From Panopea generosa (Eukaryota; Mollusca; Bivalvia; Adapedonta; Hiatellidae), in the NCBI GenBank assembly GCA_029582155.1, contig CM055905.1, positions 9,501,495 through 9,565,494 of the forward strand: a stretch of 64,000 bases of DNA, given 5' to 3'. The notes under the pieces were generated by a model that was not told the origin of the DNA, did no database searches, and saw nothing but the letters and a program-made list of their open reading frames with translations. Positions 3,005 through 29,071 of this stretch are shown here, in pieces; position 1 is the stretch's first letter, and the number at the start of each line of letters is the position of its first letter. Made by a program: the position numbers and the translations under genes.

Positions 3005-3148
3005 CTAAGTAAGGTATGGTAATATGTAATCCTCGAAAATGCGTTTATTATCATGCCACTGAGTGTGGTTAATCCCCGGAACACTATGGATAATCAAATC
3101 CCCTCTCTCATCAAGGGTTCGTAGCCCGAAGGAGTCGTCGGTGTACCA
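3005..3148 (-). CDS. PPT2: PPT2-like exon 9 (terminal; catalytic His)
   Basis: The acceptor TTTTGCAG at 3149-3156 precedes TGG TAC ACC in phase 0. The exon encodes residues 238-284: [16 protein letters not shown], then [12 protein letters not shown], then DYILPYLT and TAG. H265 in GINHTQWH aligns with the family's catalytic histidine. Confidence 0.92.
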   Translation of the reverse strand, partial: WYTDDSFGLRTLDERGDLIIHSVPGINHTQWHDNKRIFEDYILPYLT

Positions 3149-6100
3149 CTGCAAAATAAAAAAATATTGAAATCAATGAGGCTTGCTTAAAAAAACTGGG
3201 TTAATGGAGTATATAAAGCGTTTAGGTCTCACATCACAATTATCTCCCTTGAATTCTCCGGAAGGAAGAAAAAAAAGTTCCATTTCTCTTGTTTTTCATG
3301 ACTTACATTACAATAGTGCAATAATTTGTTCCTACTATATGTTAAATGGTCAGTTTTTATGAAATCAGCACAGAAAAATCGATGCTGATACATATTTTCT
3401 AGTGTCATTTGAGACTTGATGGGTCGAATCGCATCGTGGGAGAAAATATAGCTCTTAAAGTATACCATCGTTAAATAAACTGCAGTTGTAAAATTAGCGT
3501 TTAATATTAAATGAGTATATTTGTATAAATATTAATATTTCTATTATATTTTATATTCATGTTAAATTTCTATAAACAATAATTTTATACCAGTATGCAT
3601 TTTTCATATATTGAACACAATATAAGAGACAAGGTATGTCCGTAAATGAGTGTGCCATCCGAAACAGGGTCAGTTGTGGTGTAAAAGTATGTAGTGCCAC
3701 TGGCAGGTCTGTGTTCCATCATCTCACCCAAACTAACATAAAACGCAGTTCCTTTTCGATATATATATGTTTATTCTACATATACACATTTCGTTTAAAC
3801 TGTAATGGTCACTACTTAAACACGATATACGCTTCAAAACATAGTTCAGACAAAGTTCCCATCTTTTTTCCTGCCTAAAAAACTAAACTTCTCTGTTTGA
3901 CTCCTGATCTAGACGTCCTCACTCCAAAACTAAAAACTTTTTTTTTTCCATCTAAAAATCCTTCTTCTATCCTGTATCTCTCTCTACCCACTTATTATCA
4001 TAAAAGTGACAGTTAGTTCTTAAACAAGTCATTTTTTCATATATGTGCTGAACAGATGTTCATTAACTCAGTTCACATCTCTATATTTAGACCTGTTTAC
4101 GCTATATTCGTGACACGGTCATTCATCATAATGACCTCTGAAATATCCCCCAATTGCCCAGTGCAGATATACTAATGATTGTGCTGCCTTGCCTTAAACA
4201 CGAAATAGCCCACATAAGTACAATATATTGGGTTTAATTTTTACATTATCAAACTAATAAAATCAATAATTACTGAGCGACTGACTATGAAACAGTGTGG
4301 ACAAAATCGCATCCCTTTGCGCGGAATTGGTGGGCATGAAAAATTATAGAAAACGTCTTTAATACAAGGGTATATTTTGTTTTTTAGAACATAAAACTAT
4401 ATATTTAATGTTCAACTAGTTAGCCTTATTTTCAAATTGTGTATGAATTTCTTTCGTTAAAATAAAGAATATGTCGGTTTTTAAATTTTTTAGCATACAA
4501 TATGACTGACTGGTGCAAAATACCGTTGTATATTGTCAAAAACAGTTACTACCCTCACAGTCACTACCCTTGCAGTCACTACCCTCACAGTAACTAACCT
4601 CACAGTTACTACCCTCGCAGTCACTACCCTCACAATTACTACCCTCGCAGTCACTACCCTCACAGTCACTACCCTCACAGTCACTACCCCCAGTCACTAC
4701 CTGACAGTCACTACCCTCACAGTTACTACCCTCACAGTCACTACCCTCACAGTTACTACCCTCACAGTCACTACCGTCACAGTCACTACCTTCAGTCACT
4801 ACCCTGACAGTCACTACCCTCACAGTTACTACCCTCACAGTTACTACCCTTGCAGTCACTACCCTCACAGTCACTACCCTCAGTCACTACCCTCACAGTC
4901 ACTACCCTAACAGTTACTACCCTAACAGTCACAACCATCACAATCACTACCCTCAGTCACTACCCTCACAGTTACTACCCTGACAGTCACAACCCTCACA
5001 GTCACTACCCTCACAGTTACTACCCTCACAGTCACTACCCTCGCAGTTACTACCCTGACAATCGCTACCCTCAGTCACTACTCTCACAGTTACTACCCTG
5101 ACAGTCACTACCCTCACAGTTACTACCCTGACAGTCACTACCCTGACAGTCACTGCCCTCACAGTTATTACCGTCACAGTCACTACTTTCAGTCATTACT
5201 CTCACAATTACTACCCTGACAGTCACTACCCTCACAGTCACTACTCTCAGTCACTACTCTCACAGTTACTACCCTCACAGTCACTACCCTCACAATTACT
5301 ACCCTCACAGTTACTACCCTTCTACTATACATTACCTGCACATGCTTTATCTCTGGCAGTCTAATCTATACAATTCATCTAGTAATCACAGTTAGTTCAT
5401 AGAGCAATAATAAATAGTTAGAACACAATATATTGTCGTTTTGTATTATTCCCAGAAGTAGAAACAATAACATTACAGACCCGTTGAATAACGTCAAAGG
5501 TTTAGTCAGATATTGAATATATACGTAAACGTTCGGAAGTTTCCGGTCATCATCGCTTAAAATGAATGACATCCCGGGTAAAACCAGGCTTATAAATACT
5601 GTTTATATACTTATAGATCAGTGGTTATAGCTGCTGATTACCGCTCCAGCGATAAGGGCTTAAATACCATTAAAAGTTGCGGAGAGGGGGGGATTGTTGT
5701 TGTTTTTATTTTGTTGTTCATTTTATTAGCAATATAATTTTTCCTACAGTATTCCTTAATTGCTTCTCATATCCAAGAAATATTTTATTCTAAAAGTATG
5801 CAAGAATATTAGTTCATTTATGCATTTATACTAGATCTTTTTGTGTAATCTTTTGGTGTTATCTTAAAATGCATCTTTGAAGCTTAGCTTTTACCGGGGG
5901 GGGACGGATTTTGCCGAGAATGTGCGATGAATGTGCAAATATCTTCAGATATTTTACGATTATTTCCGTCAGTGAAGCAGCTAATTTGCATATTATAATT
6001 ACACTCAATAAATATATTTGTAAAACACGATTTATACACGTGTCAGAGAGAATTCGGATGTTATAAATTCACGGACGTCGATTAAACTACATGAACATGT

Positions 6101-9100
6101 TTCTATTTCCTAACTTTCTACCAACGACTGATAACTATGTCATTCTTAGCGTGAGTATGTAAATGCATTCGATCGTGTGACATTTAATTGTTGTCGTATT
6201 TTTGTTTATACATGATGTGATGTTAAGTCCGGTTTAAGAAAATTATTAATATATTACAAAATGGCACATCGTCCTAGCAGTTATGGAAACCAGATACAGT
6301 TTAAATTACTTTTACAATTTATCATAGTGTTGCGTTTATTATTACGCTCTCTATAGTAAAGCTTCCGCCTTGAAAGGACACACGGACTGTTATCTATACC
6401 TATAAAAACTGATGAAAATAGAATTACACTTCATTGTCAAATATGACCACTGCAAACATGCAAAATAATTTACAGGAGTTATTCCCCTTTGAAATAGAAA
6501 CTGAATTATCAGCCATATATATTATAAGTAGTCTAATTTCAGATTTGCTTGCATTACGTTGATAGAAAGTGTTTGTTAAGCATTCCTCAAAATTACCGTG
6601 TGTCCCTTTAAATTGTGTTATCGTATGGTGTATAGCGTCACTTTCAATAACAGTTCAGTTATATCGCTACGGTGTCTGCTTGAGACAGTATTTTGAGCGC
6701 TGCCACACTGGAATATCATGCCGCAGACACCGATCAGACCTTGAATTATCCTCTAAATTCTGAGCGCCAAGCGAGGAAGCTTCTAGTACCATTGTTCAAG
6801 TCTTTGGTATGAACCGTATGCGAGGTGGACGCTCTACCACTAGACCATTGCTGCGGTCCCTTTAACTTAAAGTTAATGCTATGAATTTTAAAATAAGTTG
6901 ATAGTGTAATTTTAGTTGCAGTGTTATTAAAACACCATAGAACTATCTTGTGATCAGATTGTAGTACATGTAAATATAAAGCATAACAAGTTATATGGTT
7001 TACCTTTTGGTTTCTCATTTCAACAACATTAAAGTTTTCGTCATAGAATCCAAAACAGCTGTAAATGAATAACAAAAGGCATGTTTAATAAATGCATATA
7101 ATTGATATAGATTTATTAAATAACAAGTTTGATGCAGAAGATGAATGTCATGTGGTATAAATGGGGGGTTATATGAGAGAACTTCTTTATTTTGATCATC
7201 ATTTCCTATCACGAAAGCGCTCCTATCAACACAATGATTATATATAACTATTATAATTTGTTATATCTGCGGACTGTCGATTGGTCGATCCGAGTTCGAA
7301 TTCAGTAACAAAAAATAATTGTTTTTTATTTCCCTTGTTACACTATTTTTACTACAGTGCTTCATAAACGGCGTCTGATATAAAAAAAACATAATGTTCC
7401 AACAAAATGAACCAAAGATATTTGTCCGTTTATGCATTTATATCTTTGCATATACATGAATCTGGCAGCGATCATTCTAATCCTGAAGTATGACGGAATA
7501 TGCCGAGTATATACAATTGAATCGGAAATATTTCGGTAATCGCCGTCAGCAAAATAGCTTATTTGCATAATAATTAGAATAACTGATCAGTTTAGATTTA
7601 AAACATGATTAAGAGAGGTATCAGCCATTATAAATGCATCAAAGACCATGAGAATATTCATTATTCTATGTAGAGTCGAATCTACGATTGCGAAAAGTGG
7701 ATTTTTTTAGTTGAAGAAACGAAACAACGATGGTGAAAAGTCGAATATACGATGATGAAAGTTTCGACCTTTCACCATCGTTGTTACGACTTTTCACCTT
7801 CGGCATTTCGATTTTTCTTAATTTAATAAATACACTGGCCGCGAATGCCCTAACTGGACACCATAAGAACTCGTCGTCTATGTTGAGCAAATAATAAAGT
7901 CTCGCACGGAAAGAATATACCATTCAGGATTGTCATTGATATTTTTTCTCATATACAAATTAATCTACAATAACGCAACATTCTCCGTTTCAGGATTCTA
8001 TATACCTACAGTTTACTAACACAAAGTTATTGGAAACCCTACTTAAGTAAATGGTACTTTTTATTCTTTACACTTGTTTATTTTACATCAATTGTGAATT
8101 AGATTCTTATAATTTAGATAAAACATGCTGGGTAGAACCAGTATTTAGCATGTGCGGAAACACTAGTTTTGCTCAAGGACACACACTGTAAACGTGGCTG
8201 AGGATCAAACCCACGACGCCCCGATTCCGATCTACCACTGAACCACGCTCTCAAGTGGGTTCTTACACCATATTCTGATGAACCAGGAGATCAGTGATAT
8301 TTGAGTCTGTTTTCCGTGTCAAACAAGGATGCTGAGATTTCCTCATGACATGTCGGTCAATCGACCAATTCAATATGTACTTGTTAAAACTAGGATACAA
8401 ATAGTTTATGCACTGGGCGAATAAATGATATTGCATTACATTGTTGCTAAACAGGACGTGTGGAGGATGCTAGCCACTTATATAATAATAGTTCACAATA
8501 ATTGATTTTACATCGATTGTGAAACAAATTTTTAAAACTTAGACAAATCTCACACAACGTATTCCTGTGTAACAGTAGTACTGCAGCGTTATTAAACATA
8601 TGCGGCTAAACGTCTCAATACACAGTTACGTCCCTTTTTCCCACGGTAGTATGATTCTTACGCTTAAAAACAAGGCTTATGTAATTTGGTTTTGATATAG
8701 CATATATTGCAATAAGACATCACTGGTGTTAAAAAGCTGACTTTTATAGGATTTCAACATATGCATGTATTTATAAGCATTTGAGGACTTCTTTTTTTAA
8801 AAAAACTCAGGGTGTCACTGCACACTCTTTAAAAAAACAACGTTTTCAACCTACCAGTTGTGCACTTGTATGTGGACTTACATTCCAACTTAGGGAAAAA
8901 AATATAATTTTATGACGAAATCCCTTTTTACAATAAAATCCTAGACCTAATTTTATATAGAACAAAGAACAAAATTCAACTGTGTATTAAGACTTAAAGG
9001 GTCTTGCTCAAGGACAATACATTATAGTATGGTCTTATTTCGCCTCCAACAATTATCCTGTCTTTTCATTGGATGAGAGTGGTCACATATTCACCTTCTG

Positions 9101-12100
9101 TTTTTCTATAAAATGTCAGTAAATTTTCGTTGAGGGCAGCCAAATCGGTATATTCAACTTGTACAAGAATTGTATACTATACTCGTATAAGGTCCACCCT
9201 TTTGATAATGCGTAGGACTGTTATTTCATATATTTAAATTCCATTAACAAACTGGAAACGGGCCTCGCAATAATTTTGATATGATTATCACTCAGTGCAT
9301 GTTCAAATATGTACGAAAATAATACAATATTCTAGCGCCGTTGTTTGAGCTGTAAGATTTGTTTTTGAATCTGAAAGTTATACTTAAAATCTTGAAAATT
9401 AACATTTAAAAGCAAGAAATTGTGTTTTTAGAATCTAGATGCATACAAGATATCTATAGTGTCATCTTCTCAAAAACCTGAACAATGAAAAGCATCAGCT
9501 ATGATGTTATCTGGAGAAACATAAAATATATTAATGCAACATAAACGACAAAAAACACACTTGCTATTTAATGCATATTTTCGATACCGATTGTCAAGTA
9601 AAATGTTGTTTACTGATAAAAAAAAACTGGCACCAGTTTTACTAAATATCTCAACTTGAGATTTCCCTTAATACAATTTTTGAAATTTTATAACTTCCTT
9701 TACATTGATTAGTTTGCACGTTATACTTTACAAATGCGTACAGGTTTGTTCCAACTTCAATCATGTGCGGTCATTTAATATATAACGAGTTCAAGTCTTT
9801 ATTTAGAGAAATTGATTTTTTTTAGTTGAGAAAAATCTTAGATTGAGATGTTAAGTGACACCGGCCTTAGATATTAAAAAAAACATTACCTCGATTGCCA
9901 CGGTCCTATCACATCGTCGTTTGGTCCGCCGAGCATTACTAGTTTGTTGAGGCGAAGGAAGTTGGATTTGAACACTAAAACATAACAGCTCATCTTGAAA
10001 TGAATGTTAAACAACAGTTACTATATTCTTTATGTTGATAATAATGATGTTATTGGCATCTATCACTCTATCATCAAGCTCACACTCTCGTGCTATCACT
10101 CTATCATCAAGCTCGCACTCTCGTGTTATCACTCTATCATCAAGCTCGCACTCTCGTGCTATCACTCTATCATCAAGCTCGCACTCTCGTGCTATCACTC
10201 TATCATCAAGCTCGCACTCTCGTGCTATCACTCTATCATCAAGCTCGCACTCTCGTGCTATCACTCTATCATCAAGCTCGCACTCTCGTGCTATCACTCT
10301 ATCATCAAGCTCACACTCTCGTGCTATCACTCTATCATCAAGCTCACACTCTCGTGCTATCACTCTATCATCAAGCTCACACTCTCGTGCTATCACTCTA
10401 CCATCAAGCTCACACTCTCGTGCTATCACTCTATCATCAAGCTCACACTCTCGTGCTACTCTATCATCAAGCTCACACTCTCGTGCTATCACTCTATCAT
10501 CAAGCTCACACTCTCGTGCTATCACTCTATCATCAAGCTCACACTCTCGTGCTATGATATTACGACGGGGGAAGGGCGAGCTCGGATCCTCCAGTAAACC
10601 AGGGGTGGTATTCACCAAACATTCTTAAGCATATTCTTAGACTTGAACTCAAGAATGAATTTTGAAAAACACACTTAGAGACCGTTGTTTGACACCAAAA
10701 TTTGCAAGCATGTAAAGACATTTAATATATAGTCAAATAAACTCTCACACTTATTATTTATGTAATAAGAAACTAGATATCTAAGGATGAAATTCAAAGA
10801 AGTCTAAGAATATTTTCAAGAACGGTTGGTGATTACGACCCAAGGTATAAGCTTCCTAAGAAGGATTTTGCTAATGAATGTCCCAAGGCTGTAACCTCCT
10901 CTGTGTAAGTATTGCAAGATGATAATTTTATGTCATTGCTTATGTTTATGCTGTTCTGGTGGTCGATTTCTTTGAAAGCTACTTCTAATAATGGATATTT
11001 ATTTTCTGACTTTAAATTAAAAGGTCTTGGTTAACGAACATAAAATGAATAAGAAAAGCCGCAACAGAGTCGGTTCGTAGATGTTGTATAAAAATTATAA
11101 CTCGATTATGCAAGCGAGTGATTGTTTGCAACCCACACCACCCACTATTACTTTGAGGACACTACAGTATAAAAATGAAAAATAGATAAAGGACCGAACT
11201 GCACGTCTAAACTAAGGTAAACACCGTTTGCTTTCAGATGAATTTACGACTGGGACTTGAACTCAAAGTTTCACCATTATTAAATACTGTGTAACTGCCA
11301 ACTATTTTTGTAGAAAATGCAATGTGATTTTTAATAATTTTCTGTTAAAGTGGCAATAAAATGATAATTTTGAATTGCCTTTATTTTTTTTTTAAATTCA
11401 CTTTCTGTGTTTACAGAAATACGTGCTCGATTTTACATATTTCAATGAAACTATTAATTGTAAATCAAAAGTATATGCTTCCTACGTATACGTAATACAA
11501 GTGATTCCTGAGCAACGGGCTAATTGATATACAACTTACTTTGACTCTGTGAATTGTAGGTTTCATTATTCAGAACTGGTAGAAATGTGCATTTTCTTCT
11601 GTATAAATCTTGGTGCAAAGGGTCTGATTAAAAGAAAAATAGATAACATTACTTTACTCGTTGTAATGCCAAAATGTCATCAGTTATTAAATATTCTTCA
11701 ATGATGCAAACATAGTTATGGTTATTAACTGAATAAGAAACTTGTCGGTAACATTAAAGGTAGTTCGCGGCGTTCCTATCAGATTTTTGACATCTGGCGT
11801 AAATTATCAAAAATCTGTACACATATACTATGAACTATAAGCTTTCGTTTTAGCTTTGTCCATTTATTCTAATTGACCTGACGCTGCCTGTCAATCAAAC
11901 AAGTCGATAATCCAATCAGCGATCGATACTGTTTCAAGAGCCGCCATTTTCCTTAGAACGGTCTCTGTTAAACGCTACACTGTATTTACAACTTGAGCAA
12001 ACAACGCCACGTGGGCAGTAGATGGAGCGACAGCCGCTCTCACGCCAGGTCACTCATATTGTGTCATGTACACAGATAGTCCGAGTTTATGTGTTGAACA

Positions 12101-13604
12101 AAATATGTATCATATTAAAAACCTACTGACCTTTCCAATAATTGAAGACGGAAACGAGCTGCCCAAACCACGTATATGCTATTCTGAAATGAATATGAGG
12201 CACGTCAGGCCAGTTTCTAGAATTTATTATATTTCTGAATATTTTTATAAGCGAGGTTCAACTTCATTATCCACACATGGCATTGGTTATATGTCCGGTT
12301 TTAATGGTTAAAGAAGACTTCAAAATGAATCTGAGCAGCAATCTTTCGAGCATAACGTTTTTAGACCGAGCTATGTTCGAATCCACGACCTCAGCATTGA
12401 GAGGTCAGAGGTCAGTAATCGACAACGCCTTAGACTTTCGGCGGAACAGGAAATTGGAATACAGGGCATATGTGTATAATAATAACATTAAAGTGATGAG
12501 CAAAAACATGGCTTTCGCTATTAATCTGATTATTTTCTTAAATTTGTATTAGAAGAAAAATATATAAATATTTGTATTTTTAAAATGGAATCGTTTCGTA
12601 TTCAAATCAAATAAATAACTCTTTAACGTAACCTAAATTAGAATTTTATTTCAAGTTCCAAAAGTTCTTATTTTTTCCACCGAGAAAGATGTCAACAGAC
12701 ACATTCACACATGAACTACCCAAGCTACATGATATCTACGTTTTATTAACAACGTAGTACAATCCAATAAAACTATTTTCTAGAGGTAGACGATTCCGAT
12801 CTCTTAGTGTTGCACACAGAACAACCCAATAACATTGCGTATTGCCACTTACTCCATAGCTTAAGCGTATCATTTTGTTTAAAGGGATTACATTGGCATA
12901 TTACCGTCAATTTCCTGTTCTAAATACACACGCCCAGCATGAAGATACACTTATAACTTAGAGATATACGCGTCTAAAGTGTCTAATTGCATAACCTCTT
13001 TATTACAAACATCGGGGTTTCTGAAGCCACGTTTTTGTTTTTGTTTACATTTGCCATTTTTTACGAACCGCTTTCGGGTTTCCGATCAATCTTCGGATAA
13101 CATCGTGAAGACTCGTTCCCGATCTCGTTTTCGAGGCTTTGTTCGGGAAGTTTACGGAGTTCAATGTAAACATTGCACAATACTTTATTGCTGGACGTAT
13201 TAAAGTTTTGGTCAATATTCAATTACTGTTAATTTGATAACTTTCAAATAAATAAAGGTTATTCGTCAATACATAAGCATTATTTTGTGCACACTGCATA
13301 CAGGAAAAAATCTGGATTAACAGCGTGTTTGTGTTACTTGCCAATGTAATCCCTTTAACTGCTCTAAGAGTCACGTACTCAAAAACAGTGTTTTATTTAA
13401 ATACAGTAATTGTCAATCGGAATGTTTTTTTGCACAACTTGTGATAGACGTTTGTTTTTTAGAAAAGCAAGCGTCGTATATGATCAAGACTATCCACTTA
13501 CTTGTAAACGTCCTTTATCGAAACCGCCAGTAAAGAGTCGATGTATTTGACAGCTGAAAGTTATATCATAACATGATTATTATTATTAGCCTCAACCCAC
13601 CCCC

Positions 13605-16600: not shown

Positions 16601-19600
16601 TTCAAGGTGTTGGAAATAGCATTGGCCATTATTTCTTCATTTCTACTATAATACGGAATAAAAGAACGTACGTGCGAACTGTCCCGCTTGCGGACTACTG
16701 AGGGAGATAAATGTATCAGCATTGTGCCGTATAGTCTCCAGTACCCCACGGCATATCAGTCCACCTACAAAATATGTAACGAAAAATAAGATAGCAAGCA
16801 AATAAAAATGCTGTGGTAATATGCACCTGGCTATCAATCCAGCGGTCGTGAGTTCGCTCCCTCCCGTTCACAGGCTCCTTAATGATTGGTATACGACATT
16901 ACGTCTCCATGACGTTCGTCTCTCACAACTGATTCAAGTGTGAAATATATATTAGTTACTTGTGGAAATGTGTGTTCTCGAGTACTGGTTTATACTTTTT
17001 ATGATTCCAGGAAAGAGTGGTTAGGTGAACGGATCATTTGTTAGACCTTAATGGCAAAACATTACGCTAACTATTCGAACACACACTCCGGAAAACACAT
17101 GTATTATACAAAAGACGCAAGGTTAATAATTATGATGTAGCCTAACTTGAGTGATGTCAAACATTGTGCTAAAAATGCGATATGATCATAACGAGTATTA
17201 TACTGCATGTTAGTACCAAAAAAGGGATATTTAGATTGTATACATAAACCAACCCAGGGAGTAGGGATACATAGATTGTATACAACCTTGCAACAAACCA
17301 ACACTGGAAGTAGGGATATTAAGATTGTATACAACCTTGCTATAACATTTATACATAAACAACCCTGAGAGTGGGGATATGTAGATTGTATACAACCATG
17401 CTATAACGTAAATATATATACATAAATCAACACGGGGAGTGGGGATATGTCGATTGTATACAACCTTGCTATAACGTACATATATATACATATATCAACA
17501 CCGGGGGTGGGGATACGTACATTTCATACTACTTTGCTATAACGTATATACATATACACAGCCTGGGAGTGGGGATATGCAGATTATATACAACCTTCCT
17601 ATAACGTATATACATATACCAACACTGGGAGTGAGGATATTTAGATTATATACAACTTTGCTATAACGTATATACATATACAAACCCTGGGAGTGGGGAT
17701 ATGTAGATTATAAACAACCTTGCTATAACGAATATACATATACCAACCCTGGGAGTGGGGATATGTAGATTATAAACAACCATGCTAATACGTATATACA
17801 TATACACAGCCTGGGCGTGGGGATATGTAGATTATAAACAACCTTGCTATAACGTATATACATATACACAGCCTGGGAGTGGGGATATGCAGATTATATA
17901 CAACCTTGCTATAACGTTTATACATATACACACCCTGGGAGTGGGGATATGCAGATTATATACAACCTTGCTATAACGTATATACATATACAAACCCTGG
18001 GAGTGAGGATATGTAGATTATATACAACCTTGCTATAACGTATATACATATACACACTCTGGGCGTGGGGATATGTAGATTATAAACAACCTTGCTATAA
18101 CGTATATACATATACACAGCCTGGGAGTGGGAATATGCAGATTATATACAACCTTGCTATAACGTATATACATATACACACCCTGAGAGTGGGGATATGC
18201 AGATTATATACAACCTTGCTATAACGTATATACATATACACACCCTGGGAGAGGGGATATGTAGATTATATACAACCTTGCTATATTGTATATACATATA
18301 CACACCCTGGGCGTGGGGATATGTAGATTATAAACAACCTTGCTATAACGTATATACAAATGCCAATACTGGGAGTGAGGATACGTAGATTATATACAAC
18401 CTTGCTATAACGTATATACATATACCAACACTGGGAGTGAGGATATTTAGATTAATTACAACCTTGCTATAACGTATATACATATACAAGCCCTGGGAGT
18501 GGAGGTATGTAGATTATATACAACATTGCTATAACGTATATACATATACACACCCTGGAAGTGGGGATATGTAGATTGTATACATCCTTGCTATAACGTA
18601 TATACATATACACACCCTGGGCGTGGGGATGTGTAGATTGTATACAACCTTGCTATAACGTATATACATATACACACCCTGGAAGTGGAGGTATGTAGAT
18701 TATATACAACCTTGCTATAACGTATATACATATACACACCCTGGGAGTGGAGGTATGTAGATTATATACAACCTTGCTATAACGTATATACATATGCACA
18801 CCCTGGAAGTGGGGATATGTAGATTATATACAACCTTGCTATAACGTATATACATATACACACCCTGGGAGTGGGGATATGTAGATTGTATACAACCTTG
18901 CTATAACGTATATACATATACACACCCTGGGAGTGGGGATATGTAGATTATATACAACCATGATATAACGTATATACATATACACACCCTGGAAGTGGGG
19001 ATATGTAGATTATATACAACCTTGCTATAACGTATATACATATACACACCCTGGGAGTGGGGATATGTAGATTATATACAACCTTGCTATAACGTATATA
19101 CATACACACACCCTGGGAGTGGGGATATGTAGATTGTATACAACCTTGCTATAACGTATATACATAAACAAACCCTGGGCGTGGGGATATGTAGATTATA
19201 AACAACATTGCTGTAACGTTTATACATATACACAGCCTGGGAGTGGGGATATGTAGATTATATACAACCTTGCTATAACGTATATACATAAACAAACCCT
19301 GGGAGGGGGGATATGTAGATTATATACAACCTTGCTATAACGTATATACATAAACAAACCCTGGGAGTGAGGATATGTAGATTATATACAACCTTGCTAT
19401 AACGTATTTACAAATGCCAATACTGGGAGTGAGGATACGTAGATTATACACAACTTTGCTATAACGAATAAACATATACCGAAACTGGGTGTGAGGGTAT
19501 GTAGATTATATACAACCTTGCTATAACGTATATACATATACCAGCACTGGGAGTGTGGATATGTAAATTATATACAACCTTGTTATAACGTATATACAAA

Positions 19601-22600
19601 TACAAACCCTGGGCGTTGGGATGTGTAGATTGTATACAACCTTACTATGTCGTATATACATATACCAACACTGGGAGTGAGGATATTTAGATTGTATACA
19701 ACCTTCTTATAACGTATATACATATACAAACCCTAGGAGTGGGGACATGTAGATTGTATACAACCTTGTTATAACGTATATACATATACCAATCCTGGGA
19801 GTGGAGGTATGTAGATTGTATACAACCTTGCTATAACGTATATACATATACACACCCTAGGAGTGGGGACATGTAGATTGTATACAACCTTGTTATAACG
19901 TATATACATATACCAATCCTGGGAGTGGAGGTATGTAGATTGTATACAACCTTGCTGTAACGTATATACATATACCAGCCCTGGGAGTGGGGATGAACCA
20001 TGCTATAACGTATATACAAATGCCAATACTGGGAGTGAGGACACGTAAATTATATACAACCTTGCTATAACGTTTATACATATACCGATACTGCGTGTGA
20101 GGGTATGTAGATTGTAAATAACCTGGCTATAACGTATATACATATACCAGCAATGGAAATGCGGGTGTGTATGTAGTTTATATACAACCTTGCTACAACG
20201 TATATACAAATACAAACCCTGGGAGTGGGGGTATGTAGATTATATATAACCTTGCTATAACGTATATACATATACCGATACTGCGTGTGAGGGTATGTAG
20301 ATTGTAAATAACCTTGCTATAACGTAAATACATATACCAGCACTGGGAGTGGGGATATGCAGATTATATACAACCTTGCTATAACGTATATACATATACC
20401 GATACTGCGTGTGAGAGTATGTAGATTGTAAATAACCTTGCTATAACGTATATACATATACCAGCACTGGGAGTGGGGATATGCAGATTATATATAACCT
20501 TGCTATAACGTATATACATATACCGATACTGCGTGTGAGGGTATGTAGATTGTAAATAACCTTGCTATAACGTATATACAAATGCCAATACTGGGAGTGA
20601 GGATACGTAGATTATAAACAACCTTGTTATAACGTATATACATATACCAACACTTCGTGTGAGGGTATGTAGATTATAAATAACCTTGCTATAACGTATT
20701 TACATATACCAGCACTGGGAGTGGGGATATGTAGATTATATACAACATTGCTATAACGTATATACTTATACCGATACTGCGTGTGAGGGTATGTAGATTG
20801 TAAATAACCTTGCTATAACGTATATACAAATGCCAATACTGAGAGTGAGGACACGTAGATTATATACAACCTTGCTATAACGTATATAGATATACTAGCC
20901 CTGGGAGTGCGGGTGTGTATGTAGATTATATACAACCTTGCTATAACGTATATACATATACAAACCCTGGGAGTGGGGATATGTAGATTATATACAACCT
21001 TGTTATAACGTATATACATATACAAACCCTAGGAGTGGGGATATGTAGATTATATACAACCTTGCTATAACGTATATACATATACAAACCCTGGGAGTGG
21101 GGATATGTAGATTATATACAACCTTGTTATAACGTATATACATATACAAACCCTAGGAGTGGGGATATGTAGATTGTATACAACATTGCTGTTACGTATA
21201 TACATATACCAGTCCTGGGAGTGGGGATAAACCATGCTATAACGTATATACAAATGCCAATACTGGGAGTGAGGACACGTAGATTATAAACAACCTTGTT
21301 ATAACGTTGATACATATACCGACACTTCGTGTGAGGGTATGTAGATTGTAAATAACCTGGCTATAACGTATATACATATACCAGCCCTGGGAATGCGGGT
21401 GTGTATGTACATTATATACAACCTTGCTATAACGTATATACATTTCAAAACCCTGGGTGTGGGGATATGTAGATTATATACAACCTTGTTATAACGTATA
21501 TACATATACAAACCCTGGGAACGGTGATATGTAGATTGCATACAACCTTGTTATAACGTATATACATATATCAACCCTGGGAGCGGTGATATGTAGATTG
21601 CATACAACCTTGTTATAACGTATATACATATACACACCCTGGGAGTGAGGATATGTAGATTATATACAACCTTGCTATAACGTATATACATATTCACACC
21701 CTGGGAGTGGGGATATGTAGATTATATACAACCTTGCTATAACGTATATACATATACACACCCTGGGCGTGGGGATATGTAGATTATATATAACCTTGCT
21801 ATAACGTATATACATATACCGATACTGCGTGTGAGGGTATGTAGATTGTAAATAACCTTGCTATAACGTATATACAAATGCCAATACTGGGAGTGAGGAT
21901 ACGTAGATTATAAACAACCTTGTTATAACGTATATACATATACCAACACTTCGTGTGAGGGTTTGTAGATTATAAATAACCTTGCTATAACGTATTTACA
22001 TATACCAGCACTGGGAGTGGGGATATGTAGATTATATACAACCTTGCTATAACGTATATACATATACCGATACTGCGTGTGAGGGTATGTAGATTGTAAA
22101 TAACCTTGCTATAACGTATATACAAATGCCAATACTGAGAGTGAGGACACGTAGATTATATACAACCTTGCTATAACGTATATAGATATACTAGCCCTGG
22201 GAGTGCGGGTGTGTATGTAGATTATATACAACCTTGCTATAACGTATATACATATACAAACCCTGGGAGTGGGGATATGTAGATTATATACAACCTTGTT
22301 ATAACGTATATACATATACAAACCCTAGGAGTGGGGATATGTAGATTGTATACAACCTTGCTGTTACGTATATACATATACCAGTCCTGGGAGTGGGGAT
22401 AAACCATGCTATAACGTATATACAAATGCCAATACTGGGAGTGAGGACACGTAGATTATAAACAACCTTGTTATAACGTTGATACATATACCGACACTTG
22501 GTGTGAGGGTATGTAGATTGTAAATAACCTGGCTATAACGTATATACATATACCAGCCCTGGGAATGCGGGTGTGTATGTACATTATATACAACCTTGCT

Positions 22601-25600
22601 ATAACGTATATACATTTACAAACCCTGGGTGTGGGGATATGTAGATTATATACAACCTTGTTATAACGTATATACATATACAAACCCTGGGAGCGGTGAT
22701 ATGTAGATTGCATACAACCTTGTTATAACGTATATACATATACACACCCTGGGAGCGGTGATATGTAGATTGCATACAACCTTGTTATAACGTATATACA
22801 TATACACACCCTGGGAGTGAGGATATGTAGATCATATACAACCTTGCTATAACGTATATACATATACACACCCTGGGAGTGGGGATATGTAGATTATATA
22901 CAACCTTGCTATAACGTATATACATATACACACCCTGGGCGTGGGGATATGTAGATTATATATAACCTTGCTATAACGTATATACATATACACACCCTGG
23001 GCGTGGGGATATGTAAATTATATACAACCTTGCTATAACGTATATACATACACACACCCTGGGAGAGGGGATATGTAGATTATATACAACCTTCCTATAA
23101 CGTATTTACATACACAAACCCTGGGAGTGGGGATATGTAGATTATATACAACCTTGCTATAACGTATATACATATACACACCCTGGGAGTGAGGATATGG
23201 AGATTATATACAACCTTGCTATAACGTATATACATACACACACCCTGGGAGAGGGGATATGTAGATTACATACAACCTTGCTATAACGTATATACATATA
23301 CACACCCTGGGAGTGAGGATATGTAGATTATATACAACCTTGCTATAACGTATATACATATACACACCCTGGGCGTGGGGATATGTAAATTATATACAAC
23401 CTTGCTATAACGTATATACATACACACAACCTGGGAGAGGGGATATGTAGATTATATACAACCTTGCTATAACGTATATACATATTATACACACCCTGGG
23501 AGTGGAGATATGTAGATTATATACAACCTTGCTATAACGTATAAACATATACACACCCTGGGAGTGGGGATATGTAGATTATTTACAACCATGCTATAAC
23601 GTATATACATATACACACCCTGGGAGTGGGGATATGTAGATTATATACAACCATGCTATAACGTATATACATATACACACCCTGGGAGTGAAGATATGTA
23701 GATTATATACAGCCTTGCTATAACGTATATACATACACACACCCTGGGAGATGGGATATGTAGATTATATACAACTTTGCTATAACGTATATACATATAC
23801 ATACCCTGGGAGTGGGGATATGTAGATTATATACAACCATGCTATAACGTATATACATATACACACCCTGGGAGTGGGGATATGTAGATTATATACAACC
23901 TTGCTATAACGTATATACATATACCAACCCCGGGAGTGGGGTGTGTAGATTATATACAACCTTGCTATAACGTATATACATATACACACCCTGGGAGTGG
24001 AGATATGTAGATTATATACATCCTTACTATAACGTATATAGATATACCAGCCCTGGGAGTGCGGGTGTGTATGTAGATTATATACAACCTTGCTATAACG
24101 TATATACATACACACACCCTGGGAGAGGGGATATGTAGATTATATACAACCTTGCTATAACGTATATACATATACACACCCTGGGAGTGGGGATATGTAG
24201 ATTATATACAACCTTGCTATGGCGTATATACATATACCAACCCTGGAAGTGGGGATATGTAGATTATATACAACCTTGCTATGACGTATATACATATACC
24301 AACCCCGGGAGTGGGGTGTGTAGATTGTATACAACTGTGCTATAACGTATATACCTATACCAGCCAACGAGTGGGGTGTGTAGATTGTATACAACTGTGC
24401 TATAACGTATTTACATATACACACCCTGGGAGTGGCAGATCAGGTGGACTCCGTCTGGATGTTTTGCCATGAACGCCGCCATCTCGAGTTTGATGTTCTT
24501 TATCTGTGTGTGCATATTTGTGAAGCTCCGATATCTCTGATAGCTGCTTATAGCGAGCGTCTCTGTACCCGGGTGGGCCTGAATTACATGACAAACCACT
24601 GTTTAAGATATATTTACGCTGAGAAAAAGACAATATCTCAATAGCAGAGAATTTCCACAGTATTGTTTTTAAACTTGATTATTTTACGTCGACTGAGGAA
24701 AAAGGTCGAACCCACGACCCCTCCTGGGTGTGAAGCTTGTTTCAAGTGATGTTTGTGTTTCGTCTTTCAGTATTCAATATGAAACTATAGTCAAACCTGT
24801 GTAAGCGGTCACCTCTATTAAGCAACCATATTTTCTCTTTCCTTTGACTGACTGCTTAAGACAGGTTTAACTGTAACCCAATCCCTCTCGGCCTCCTATA
24901 TTAAAGAGTTGTATATTTTAAGTCTGGAGCCTCCGTTGCCGAGTGGTCTAAGGCGCTGTCTCAAGATCACTTACCGGTTCGAGTCCCGCTCACTTAAAAA
25001 ACTTTATGTGAGAAAGTTTGCCAGTTACTTTCGGAAGGACGGTGATTTTACTCAGTCTGAGGTCTTCCTCCACCAGTAAGGCTGGATATGCCATATATAA
25101 CCTGATATGTGTTGAAAATCGCGTTAAACCATATTAAAAAAATGAAAATGTAAGCCAAAGACGACAAATAAATATCAGACTCCTGTGTTTGCTGTTACAA
25201 TAATAATGTGTCTAATGGCTAATTACATAGCTGATCGCTGAAACGATCATTATGTTCGCTGACAGTCGTTAAATAACTGAAAATATTGTTGAAAAGGAAC
25301 AAACACTGATATGAATAGACATTGTCCATCGTATATAATCAATTAGAGTTATGATTAGTAGTACAAATTTATTAAACACTGGTATGTTTTTATGTCATTG
25401 TAATAGAAAACAATATTTACTGTTCGCAAAACCCCAGATTTAAAGTCGCATTAACAATGTTTTAATTAATGCATTATCTCGACATGTACATAGCCTTTAT
25501 ATCAATATCTTAAAATATTGTTTTATATACATATTTACTGAACGGAACAGCTAACCCGCCACCGGACATTTTTTGTTAGTTGAACGGAACAGCTAACCCG

Positions 25601-28600: not shown

Positions 28601-29071
28601 TTTCTTTACACTTTTGATAACTTTCTTTCATATTAAAGTATAGAAGAAAGAGATCATTTTACAGTGTTTTATACACTATGGGAATATATTGTACTCGAAC
28701 GTATTATGGTGAAAACCATAGTGGACGAGACGACGTATATGTATTCCCATATTGTACAAAACACTGTAAAATAACCCAATAATGTACAATTCTTGTAAAA
28801 AATATTGTTAAAACCAATAACAATCGATATTCATTCATCCATTTTTTTGTAGCAACGAATACAAAATCTCTCAATTATTGTTTATATATCACAGTAAATC
28901 TTTGTATAAAGCTTTAACTATTAATATTTTATTTACCTCTTTTATCCATTGAAATATCTTGGTTGCCGATTGAATGCTTCCTGTAACTCCGTGCATGAAA
29001 ATGATAGGTTTGTAGCACTGGACACCGACACGCAGCAGAGATAGCCATGTGAATATTTTGACAAAAATCAT
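3005..29071 (-). CDS. PPT2: PPT2-like lysosomal thioesterase, nine coding exons, 284 aa
   Basis: The nine exons are listed separately. Joined, they give 852 coding nt plus TAG, with all phases compatible. The product starts with a signal peptide ([19 protein letters not shown]) followed by YKPIIFMHG, as in palmitoyl-protein thioesterases. It has nucleophile elbow HLICHSQGG (Ser95), then [37 protein letters not shown] (catalytic Asp, probably Asp210), DDSFGLRTL and GINHTQWH (His265). Spacings Ser-Asp 115 and Asp-His 55 match my memory of human PPT2 (117 and 55; 302 aa). N-X-T sequons occur at N182 and N264. The family removes thioester-linked acyl groups from lipid-modified substrates in lysosomes; PPT2 is preferred over PPT1 because of GGPxD and SSPQxGQ. 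No lesion is seen. Introns 2, 6 and 8 contain tandem arrays. Confidence 0.93.
3149..4537. other. PPT2-like intron 8, distal part: no recognisable feature
   Basis: AT-rich intronic sequence. Short ORFs on both strands lack codon structure or known motifs. I see nothing to annotate. Confidence 0.5.
4538..5330. repeat. 15-bp minisatellite in PPT2-like intron 8 (about 50 units)
   Basis: The array repeats CACAGTCACTACCCT with variants (GTTACT, CTGACAG, CTTGCAG). Scattered shorter units such as CAGTCACTACCCT shift the frame. The long ORFs here ([14 protein letters not shown]) exist only because 15 is a multiple of 3 and the unit lacks stops. Confidence 0.92.
5331..6659. other. PPT2-like intron 8, middle part: only a decayed tRNA-like trace
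   Basis: Around 5615-5680 a pol III A-box-like GATCAGTGGTTATAGC is followed by tRNA-like text, probably an old SINE. A poly-G tract lies near 5895. No gene is seen. Confidence 0.4.
6660..6865 (-). mobile_element. tRNA-derived SINE, family C
   Basis: On the minus strand the head GGTCTAGTGGTAGAGCGTCC is an A-box region. The body includes GAAGCTTCCTCGCTTGGCGC and ATTCCAGTGTGGCAGCGCTC. The same head and body order recurs at 49735-49930. No clear target-site duplication was found. Confidence 0.65.
7004..7058 (-). CDS. PPT2: PPT2-like exon 8
   Basis: The acceptor ATTTACAG precedes C TGT TTT GGA, completing Ser219 from exon 7. The exon encodes [18 protein letters not shown] and ends at AAG with donor GTAAAC, phase 0. 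This matches the family stretch following WQSS. Confidence 0.92.
7059..8119. other. PPT2-like intron 7, proximal part with an inverted repeat at 7724-7785
   Basis: Arms 7724-7745 (ACAACGATGGTGAAAAGTCG) and 7762-7785 are inverted copies, with a third related direct copy from about 7670. This looks like a small dispersed repeat. A decayed B-box-like sequence lies near 7290. No coding sequence is recognised. Confidence 0.4.
8120..8255 (-). mobile_element. tRNA-derived SINE-like sequence, family D
   Basis: On the minus strand GCGTGGTTCAGTGGTAGATC resembles an A box and GGGTTTGATCC a B box, 30-40 nt apart as in a tRNA. The downstream body contains TGTCCTTGAGCAA, also found near 9005-9022. It is too short to fix the ends. 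Confidence 0.5.
8256..9889. other. PPT2-like intron 7, distal part: no recognisable feature
   Basis: AT-rich sequence without supported genes; only the short TTGCTCAAGGACA repeat fragment near 9005 is shared with 8160-8180. Confidence 0.45.
9890..9974 (-). CDS. PPT2: PPT2-like exon 7 (catalytic Asp)
   Basis: The acceptor ATGTTTTAG precedes TG TTC AAA TCC, completing Met191 from exon 6. The exon encodes [20 protein letters not shown] then VIGPWQS, and ends TCG AG with donor GTAATG. D210 aligns with the second D of the family motif GGPDDG. Confidence 0.93.
10060..10555. repeat. 33-bp minisatellite in PPT2-like intron 6 (15 units)
   Basis: The unit is CTATCACTCTATCATCAAGC followed by TCGCACTCTCGTG. 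Unit 1 and units from about the eighth on carry A where units 2-7 carry G (TCACACTC versus TCGCACTC). One unit at about 10456 has a 3-nt deletion. All frames stay open because 33 is a multiple of 3; this is not coding. Confidence 0.95.
10602..10841. mobile_element. MITE, family 2, with about 42-bp terminal inverted repeats
   Basis: The left end GGGGTGGTATTCACCAAACA...TTCTTAGACTT is matched in reverse complement by the right end AAGTCTAAGAATATTTTCAA...GATTACGACCC. The interior is non-coding and AT-rich. It sits immediately beside the 33-bp array in intron 6. Confidence 0.7.
11540..11623 (-). CDS. PPT2: PPT2-like exon 6
   Basis: The acceptor TTAATCAG precedes AC CCT TTG, completing Asp163 (KDP) from exon 5. 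The exon encodes [20 protein letters not shown] then TYNSQ, ending CAA A with donor GTAAGT (phase 1). N182-E-T is a sequon. Confidence 0.93.
12131..12183 (-). CDS. PPT2: PPT2-like exon 5
   Basis: The acceptor TTCATTTCAG precedes A ATA GCA TAT. The exon encodes [17 protein letters not shown] and ends AAA G with donor GTCAGT. FGQ..S.FNYWKD is the family's conserved block. The plus-strand ORF overlapping it (12066-12311) is a shadow. Confidence 0.92.
12879..13358. mobile_element. MITE-like element with perfect 20-bp inverted ends, flanked by TTAA
   Basis: TTAAAGGGATTACATTGGCA at 12879-12898 is exactly inverted at 13339-13358. TTAA could be the target duplication. The interior holds a block at about 13111-13165 that recurs at 31147-31199. 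It lies in PPT2-like intron 4. No transposase is encoded. Confidence 0.6.
13502..13553 (-). CDS. PPT2: PPT2-like exon 4
   Basis: The acceptor TAACTTTCAG precedes CT GTC AAA TAC. The exon encodes (P)[16 protein letters not shown](K) and ends TAC AA with donor GTAAGT. It is the least conserved exon, supported by the Y-x-x-x-L pattern and by exact phase fit on both sides. Confidence 0.86.
13604..13653. repeat. (CA)n microsatellite
   Basis: A run of about 24 CA repeats with a single AA interruption, in PPT2-like intron 3. Confidence 0.95.
14098..14377 (-). mobile_element. tRNA-derived SINE, family A, full length with 14-bp target-site duplication
   Basis: The minus-strand head is tRNA-like (GTCCGATTAGCTCATC, then GGGGTCGTGAGTTCGAATCC as B box). 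The body contains CAGTCTCCG, TGATTCAAGTGG and GGTGTGCTCGAG, and the tail is a (TCAA)-like run. CTATAGAAATAAGA flanks both ends at 14084-14097 and 14378-14391 without mismatch, proving a retroposition and suggesting a fairly recent one. Related copies are at 16803, 50688 and 51161. Confidence 0.88.
15920..16127 (-). mobile_element. tRNA-derived SINE, family B
   Basis: The minus-strand head CCTCCGTGGGCGATTGGTCT and B box TTCAAGTCCCG resemble a Leu/Ser-type tRNA. The body has TGTGTAAGAAAGT and the 3' part CTGGATATGCCATAT. It is the same family as 24928-25130 and 48696-48800. Confidence 0.72.
16672..16764 (-). CDS. PPT2: PPT2-like exon 3
   Basis: The acceptor ATTTTGTAG precedes GT GGA CTG ATA, completing Gly97 of the GxSxG-type elbow. 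The exon encodes [20 protein letters not shown] then [10 protein letters not shown] and ends GCA C with donor GTACGT. ISLSSPQxGQ is highly characteristic of PPT2. Confidence 0.94.
16803..17060 (+). mobile_element. tRNA-derived SINE, family A, 5'-truncated
   Basis: It begins within the tRNA-like head (GGCTATCAATCCAGCGGTCG) and continues through TGATTGGTATACGACATTAC and GTTCTCGAGTACTGG to the family tail. It is diverged from the copy at 14098-14377. Confidence 0.72.
17224..24435. repeat. 62-bp satellite array filling PPT2-like intron 2 (about 115 units, 7.2 kb)
   Basis: The consensus unit is ACACACCCTGGGAGTGGGGA, then TATGTAGATTATATACAACC, then TTGCTATAACGTATATACAT, then AT. Successive TATAACG motifs lie 62 nt apart. 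Units are most uniform in the middle and right parts and decay toward 17224. A 1.2-1.3-kb block is duplicated (about 20750-21500 and 22050-22670) and a 124-bp dimer recurs at 20270-20540. The right end reaches 24435, so it overlaps the last 11 nt of exon 2. Many short ORFs on both strands ([16 protein letters not shown]) are repeat artefacts. Confidence 0.95.
24425..24578 (-). CDS. PPT2: PPT2-like exon 2 (catalytic Ser)
   Basis: The acceptor GTAATTCAG precedes GCC CAC CCG, in phase 0 after exon 1. The exon encodes [20 protein letters not shown], then [20 protein letters not shown], then [11 protein letters not shown], with Ser95 as nucleophile. It ends CAG G at a weak donor, GTGTGT; exon 3 begins GT GGA, restoring SQGGL. 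The last 11 nt (CCACTCCCAGG) and the donor are also the core of the 62-bp satellite unit. Confidence 0.94.
24787..24877. repeat. Dispersed repeat with inverted ends (AAACCTGTGTAAGCGGTCAC type)
   Basis: It runs from GTCAAACCTGTGTAAGCGGT to CTTAAGACAGGTTTAACTGT, an imperfect inverted repeat. A longer relative is nested in a MITE at 27897-28085. It is probably a small non-autonomous DNA transposon. Confidence 0.5.
24928..25130 (+). mobile_element. tRNA-derived SINE, family B, near full length
   Basis: The head GCCTCCGTTGCCGAGTGGTC with TAAGGCGCTG resembles a Leu/Ser-type tRNA; the B box is GGTTCGAGTCCCG. The body has TTTATGTGAGAAAGTTTGCC and the 3' part GGCTGGATATGCCATATATA. Confidence 0.78.
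25131..25537. other. PPT2-like intron 1: AT-rich, nothing recognised
   Basis: No coding, RNA or repeat feature could be supported here. Confidence 0.4.
25538..25950. mobile_element. MITE family 1 copy whose left terminus is repeated five times in tandem
   Basis: TGAACGGAACAGCTAACCCG followed by CCAC...TTTTTGTTAGT is repeated with a period of about 42 bp from 25539 to about 25740. The ordinary interior (TATTTTCTCAAAAAG) and an inverted right end (GGCTGGTTAACTGTTTCGTT) follow. It lies in PPT2-like intron 1. Confidence 0.75.
25951..27044. other. PPT2-like intron 1: AT-rich, nothing recognised
   Basis: Low-complexity TA-rich runs around 26420-26700. No gene or repeat family was identified. Confidence 0.4.
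27045..27610 (-). pseudogene. Decayed 3' end of a LINE ORF2 (C-terminal region after the RT)
   Basis: The minus strand reads, in broken frames, [12 protein letters not shown], then [45 protein letters not shown], then [20 protein letters not shown]...LxxETGRY...ERxC..C...xEDExHxLxxCxxYxDLR is the usual C-terminal zinc-knuckle region of several LINE clades; here the first two cysteines are degraded. Several stops are present. No RT is recognisable upstream. It is inserted in PPT2-like intron 1. Confidence 0.65.
27743..28165. mobile_element. MITE family 1 copy interrupted by a second repeat
   Basis: The left end CTGAACAGCTAACCAGCCAC and the right end GGCGAGTTGGCTGTGTCGTT are the family ends. 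Between 27897 and 28085 lies a copy of the repeat with ends AAACCTGTCTTAAGC and GCTTACGCAGGTTTGAC, nested inside. Confidence 0.65.
28166..28653. other. PPT2-like intron 1: AT-rich, nothing recognised
   Basis: No feature could be supported. Confidence 0.4.
28654..28773. repeat. Imperfect 60-bp-arm inverted repeat with 4-nt loop
   Basis: The arm starting TCATTTTACAGTGTTTTATA is matched in reverse complement by the arm ending ACAAAACACTGTAAAATAA. The centre is TATGGT-GAAA-ACCATA. It is either a foldback transposon or a hairpin transcript from PPT2-like intron 1. Confidence 0.7.
28937..29071 (-). CDS. PPT2: PPT2-like exon 1 (signal peptide and HG loop)
   Basis: ATG at 29071-29069 in context CCAGGATGA gives a hydrophobic signal peptide [19 protein letters not shown], then [20 protein letters not shown] and FQWIKE, ending GAG with donor GTAAAT (phase 0). 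The frame stays open for about 25 codons upstream but holds no ATG there, so this Met is chosen. HG contributes to the oxyanion region in the family. Confidence 0.9.

Follow-up and report, generated by a model that had tools for sequence, protein, structure and literature searches.

The stretch of DNA analysed here, 64,000 nt (C12:9501495-9565494) of an assembly of 1.47 Gb and referred to below as the window, carries on its minus strand a PPT2-like thioesterase gene, the second intron of which is mostly filled by an array of 62-bp units that starts within the end of the preceding exon. The peptide translated from exons 1-5 and 7 matched the Pfam domain Palm_thioest with E=3.4e-33 and the human PPT2 chain 1pja with E=1.2e-36, and by domain as well as by relationship to human PPT2 the gene is predicted to encode a PPT2-like thioesterase; its closest named protein matches, among the matches listed, were those of Mactra, Ruditapes and Dreissena, for which reason the host is taken to be a heterodont bivalve. 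Eight PPT2-like exons were located between 29071 and 3005. Exon 1 (coding part from the ATG) occupies 28937..29071 and exon 2 (154 nt) 24425..24578, the latter with the nucleophile elbow C-H-S-Q-G at its end, which is in phase 1. Exon 3 (GLICRGVLE...) covers 16668..16764, its end lying at 16668 if it is joined directly to exon 4 and at 16672 if an extra exon stands between them. Exons 4 and 5 follow at 12131..12183 and 11540..11623, exons 6 and 7, both with approximate edges, at 9892..9972 and 7007..7060, and exon 8 with the stop codon at 3005..3148. Ser, Asp and His, which we take to be the catalytic residues of PPT2, have counterparts at all three positions, with the Asp in GGPNDD of exon 6 and the His in NHTQWH of exon 8 placed by eye.

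The 62-bp array extends over 17224-24435 (the rows of Tandem Repeats Finder span 17246-24435), of which 17224..24424 is intronic and 24425..24435 is the end of exon 2. These last 11 nt of the exon, CCACTCCCAGG on the minus strand, hold the codons His-Ser-Gln with one base on either side and are followed by the donor GTGTGTATATG; the true donor GTGTGT and the intronic part of unit 1 lie at 24376..24424. The further units repeat this layout in sense orientation, as an exon-like CCACTCCCAGG and then a donor-like GTGTGTATATG, or variants of them. When the array was cut at the exon-like anchor, 115 units were obtained, the exon unit included, with a degenerate tail at the far end and with spacings of exactly 62 in 98 of 114 cases. 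On its sense strand the array contains the string CCACTCCCAGG 33 times, and the remaining window has it on neither strand.

An earlier note on this DNA, the original prediction, had described an array of about 115 sense-oriented units overlapping the end of exon 2 by 11 nt; that description holds. It had also claimed that most units repeat the 11-nt string, giving about a hundred copies, which is right in kind and too high for exact copies: apart from the exon unit there are 114 units, compared in register here and below, and of these 31 carry the string exactly, 77 differ from it at no more than one position and 94 at no more than two. In 56 of them CAC TCC CAG is intact. A GT stands at the donor position in 69/114, and the hexamer GTGTGT, the donor of the gene itself, is the commonest type of the array (35/114). 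It should be added that higher-order duplications are visible at 19990-22450, where blocks of 19-20 units (about 1.2 kb) are found repeatedly, and every block includes a shortened unit of 48 bp (units 33, 52 and 72).

A protein search (10 matches, E up to 1) recovered exons 2 and 3 of five paralogs, the window gene (A) and genes B to E. The site of intron 2 is identical and in phase 1 in all five (CAA or CAG, then G/GT), and all five share the exon-end codons for Ser-Gln-Gly (TCC or TCT, CAA or CAG, G). The boundary array is confined to A and B; in C a different 46-bp array lies inside intron 2 (stretch L022 1483-3483) and in D a GTA microsatellite was seen. Since intron 2 is common to the five paralogs and three of them are free of the boundary array, the intron must have preceded the satellite, by which it was lengthened. 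Intron gain, to which the original prediction had drawn a link, is thus not supported, and gain of intron 2 by the array was rejected as a candidate: the duplication made no new intron here, the same one being present in C, D and E. Intron gain by tandem genomic duplication of AGGT has been reviewed (PMC3443670) and a potato case reported (PMC4974935); in that mechanism the tandem duplication carries an exon end and a splice signal, as it does here, with the difference that here an intron predating the duplication was extended. Furthermore, the Ser-Gln-Gly exon end also exists where no array does, so that CTCCCAGG, the last 8 nt of exon 2, was most simply copied from the exon into the array.

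When 187 bp of the array were searched against the genome, 51 matches came back, every one inside the window array, and the 62-bp satellite was not found elsewhere in this one 1.47-Gb assembly by that search, which skips very common words. A search with the exon edge returned the window array and one other place, the PPT2-like gene B at C12:50.85 Mb, 41 Mb away. In gene B, too, an array starts at the exon 2 boundary; its units measure 49 bp and number 34 with the exon unit counted. Exon and units of B have 8 nt in common, CTCCCAGG, found exactly in 17 of the 33 other B units, and a GT stands at the donor position in 27 of these 33. The longest exact string common to the two arrays is 26 nt long and includes CACTCCCAGG; once the exon string is masked it measures 22 nt. 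In control comparisons, the longest strings of the B array were 14 and 16 nt against the remaining window and 18 nt against an array on C7. The latter, matched by B units, was considered as a third member and discarded, as its unit is AT-rich, 25-26 bp long and without CCAGG on both strands, and no PPT2 exon was found in the 20 kb examined there. In a tree of units the 34 B units and the 115 A units were split on one branch with a support of 0.937. Genes A and B were recovered as sisters (86/93) and, over the 83 codons of exons 2 and 3, differ with dN 0.135 and dS 0.699, which speaks for purifying selection on the pair; the comparison was limited to these two exons because the lengths of exon 1 differ by a codon.

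Taken at this level, the data agree well with the seeding of the satellite by tandem duplication across the exon 2/intron 2 boundary, as had been proposed originally, the satellite being found only there, in A and in its sister B. The event would have taken place in the A/B ancestor and would have taken in no less than the terminal 8 nt of exon 2 (CTCCCAGG), together with the first 40-50 nt of intron 2. The converse, that an unrelated satellite or mobile element was inserted at the boundary and owes its match with the exon to chance or to a target-site duplication, draws on the facts that satellites often spread with mobile elements and that several other minisatellites sit in introns of this gene family. 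It is nevertheless highly improbable, given that the exon end is conserved coding sequence, the array-free paralogs included, that the 62-bp unit was met nowhere else in the assembly within the reach of the search, and that a chance match of 11 nt at one fixed place would be expected at about 4 to the minus 11.

The origin of the intronic part of the unit is less clear-cut. The start of intron 2 in paralog E resembles the A units to a degree reached by 12 of 6713 GT sites of the window outside the array and by 1 of 1000 shuffles; in the paralog loci 21 of 2384 sites scored as high, with the site's own score counted and every third 62-bp unit used. Against the B units the same intron start was equalled by 292/6713 sites and 154/1000 shuffles, and by 134/2384 sites in the paralog loci, and no resemblance to the window unit was apparent for the intron starts of paralogs C and D (1423/6713 and 2566/6713, respectively). 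As several introns and queries were tried, the resemblance of E is treated as a lead: its intron start may represent the unmultiplied ancestor of the unit, which is suggestive with respect to A units and weak with respect to B units.

The codon in front of the catalytic Ser adds a second step to this history. Among 120 homologs listed of 311 found, the preceding residue is Phe in 68 and Tyr in 52, and His in none; within the family, B and E have TTC, C and D have TAT, and A has CAC. His at this place is therefore seen solely in the window gene among the five paralogs and the 120 homologs listed. CAC is, in contrast, the usual state of the arrays, with 94/114 of the other window units and 30/33 of the other B units, though the B exon itself keeps TTC. 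The donors show the same correspondence with the arrays: GTGTGT of the window gene is absent from the 33 other B units, and GTTGGT, the donor of gene B, is found in 13 of these and in 9 of the 114 other A units. With CAC dominant in both arrays and TTC in the B exon, the most simple assumption is that CAC already belonged to the ancestral unit when the exon still read TTC. The CA of that unit probably stems from the distal end of the duplicated segment, and the CA before CTCCCAGG in the window exon probably reflects later copying from the array into the exon. The view that the whole 11-nt match derives from the exon consequently stands for CTCCCAGG, whose Ser-Gln-Gly codons the array-free paralogs have as well, and less so for the preceding CA, which is probably not ancestral. 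Moreover, the last 30 nt of unit 1 are identical to those of unit 2, and its first 22 nt to those of 11 other units, so exchange seems to reach the exon edge. We infer that one exchange carrying an array unit over the exon end and the donor is the simplest single account of these observations.

The reading that we prefer, with a probability of about 0.55, is that the boundary satellite was seeded from the exon edge in the A/B ancestor and that one unit was later copied back over the exon end and donor of the window gene. The exon-adjacent unit would have joined the homogenisation of the array by gene conversion, unequal exchange or template switching, and a former decoy exon end with its donor would have become the real ones. 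The units being in register with the reading frame, such copying would keep the frame, Ser, Gln and a usable donor, and would be visible merely as the F-to-H change and GTGTGT. A more far-reaching formulation, which we advance tentatively at slightly under even odds, regards the satellite as a reservoir of spare exon ends and the window exon end as a recycled unit, so that array turnover replaced the residue beside the catalytic Ser and edited the protein through an intact splice site.

Several points weigh against copying back. TTC could also have turned into CAC by two point mutations via TAC, as Tyr is allowed, and the match with the array could then be due to chance. The scenario in which an exon-seeded array never returned a unit and His arose along TTC, TAC and CAC takes only two substitutions; its intermediate, Tyr, occurs in 52 of the listed 120 homologs, and alpha/beta hydrolases in general often have His in front of the nucleophile Ser. 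We consider this scenario unlikely overall, with His in 0/120 of the homologs listed and in 0/4 of the other paralogs, and with the array-type state flanking CTCCCAGG on both sides, CAC before it and GTGTGT behind it. The base preceding CAC, the C of TGC, is likewise C in most units, so the left end of any copied tract is invisible. An ancestral His with reversal in B is possible, too: the exon of the A/B ancestor would already have read CAC at seeding, all 11 nt would be exon-derived, and B would have gone back to TTC later. The prevalence of CAC in the other units of both arrays fits this, and exon 2 of paralog E (TTC), about 22 kb from that of B, could have acted as a donor. Such a course requires F to H and then H to F, that is, four changes or a donation, and the next codons of B, TCC CAG, match A and not the TCT CAA of E; we regard it as rather improbable. 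In addition, the paralogs give no proof of where the intronic part of the unit came from, E resembling the A units weakly and the B units hardly, and C and D not resembling the A units; one unrelated AT-rich array, that of C7, also matched B units; very common words are passed over in the genome search; and the sister support of A and B is moderate, below the star of the tool.

The array may confront the splicing machinery with numerous copies of the exon 2 donor, and decoy splicing, exonisation or recursive splicing might result, as proposed originally. Calculated pairing of the window donor with U1 was -7.5 kcal/mol vs -14.0 for the consensus, and to this extent the true donor is weak, as had been stated originally; it is, however, not weaker than the donors of C, D and E, which lack the array (-6.6, -5.6 and -6.1 kcal/mol, respectively), and lies within the -5.6 to -7.8 spanned by the other paralogs. 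When all 115 units were compared over this slice, 40 of them, the true one included, paired equally well or better. If the true donor is passed over, the frame closes inside unit 1, with a stop as the fifth codon behind Gln (HSQGVYM-stop), and donor use in unit 2 or later would therefore truncate the protein just after the elbow. The true donor might be picked over identical decoys as the one nearest to exon 2, and use of a decoy would bring in the stop and may expose the transcript to decay. The donor columns are among the least conserved of the A units (3 of 62 rotations as low) and not of the B units (13 of 49); selection against decoys through their erosion is accordingly not claimed, the low conservation in A not being repeated in B.

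The closest known system is formed by the mirages of amphioxus, minisatellite-like duplications of intron-exon boundaries in Adh3, globin (BflGb6, BflGb9), troponin C and PGBD5, in which AG/GT signals recur in many units and regular splicing is apparently undisturbed (PMC3087553, PMC3902484). Measured against the available passages of these reports, the likenesses are structural. The unit spans an exon-intron boundary, splice signals are retained in many, not all, units (69/114 in A, 27/33 in B), and units are homogenised within a cluster, those of A and B standing on separate branches; the 62 bp of the window unit also fall within the 10-72 bp given for Adh3. Judged from its sequence, the window array thus appears to combine the features of a mirage, namely a boundary-spanning unit, partial splice signals and concerted evolution. 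It departs from mirages in a host that is probably a mollusc and not a cephalochordate, in its approximately 115 units as compared to 6 and 3 in two BflGb6 haplotypes, and in the occupation of one boundary in two paralogs with diverged units. Furthermore, the edges of the BflGb6 cluster are said in those passages to be excluded from homogenisation, whereas the exon edge of the window gene appears to be included, with a coding change.

In the metallothionein genes of earthworms, intronic minisatellites differ between tandem gene copies (PMC12783039), which parallels the different intronic arrays of A and B; units with an exon end or a splice site are, as far as the available passages go, not described there. 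In the open-licence literature, as covered by titles, starts of abstracts and passages on clam globin, earthworm and cone-snail genes, no repeat that crosses a splice site was met for any bivalve. Going by their titles alone, and with no comparison drawn, Zhuo et al. 2007 reportedly deal with introns from tandem arrays in human genes, and Nassif and Mackinlay 1996 reportedly with hypervariable repeats in a globin intron of the bivalve Anadara.

Some further features of the window and of the gene family should be recorded. Paralogs B and E form a tandem pair of equal orientation in a region of about 50 kb (C12:50.827-50.876 Mb). Gene B was followed only in part, its exons 7 and 8 lying beyond the DNA compared. 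An exon for a segment of about 20 residues, GDTDY...RDNVYR, which is present in bivalve homologs and paralog E and weakly in paralog D, was sought in genes A and B (for A in 16668-12183 of the window), and none was recognisable; direct splicing of exon 3 to exon 4 at CGTAC/GTT keeps the frame in both genes. An intron of gene B contains a long minisatellite with a 25-bp unit (stretch L010 590-3380), and the long minisatellites in introns of B (25 bp) and C (46 bp) hint at a general load of arrays in the introns of this family. In the window, minisatellites with 15-bp and 33-bp units are placed at 4542-5320 and 10060-10555, in later introns of the gene and without contact with the exons found. 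Intron 1 holds at 24935-25130 what looks by eye like a tRNA-headed short interspersed nuclear element (SINE), similar copies of which occur in stretch L011 of the paralog B/E region. At 79-456 of the minus strand there is an open frame ending in a stretch resembling a CCHC zinc knuckle (CFNCQQFGHHRERC), by eye probably a retroelement remnant.

One genome thus presents a boundary satellite whose direction of copying is readable from array-free paralogs, most simply from exon to array first and probably from array to exon later. If the copying back is true, the concerted evolution of non-coding repeats can cross a splice site and change the surroundings of an enzyme's active site. The locus also offers a natural test bed for a spliceosome that has to pick out a single donor from dozens of identical decoys, and through it the range of mirages, described in amphioxus, would probably come to include molluscs.

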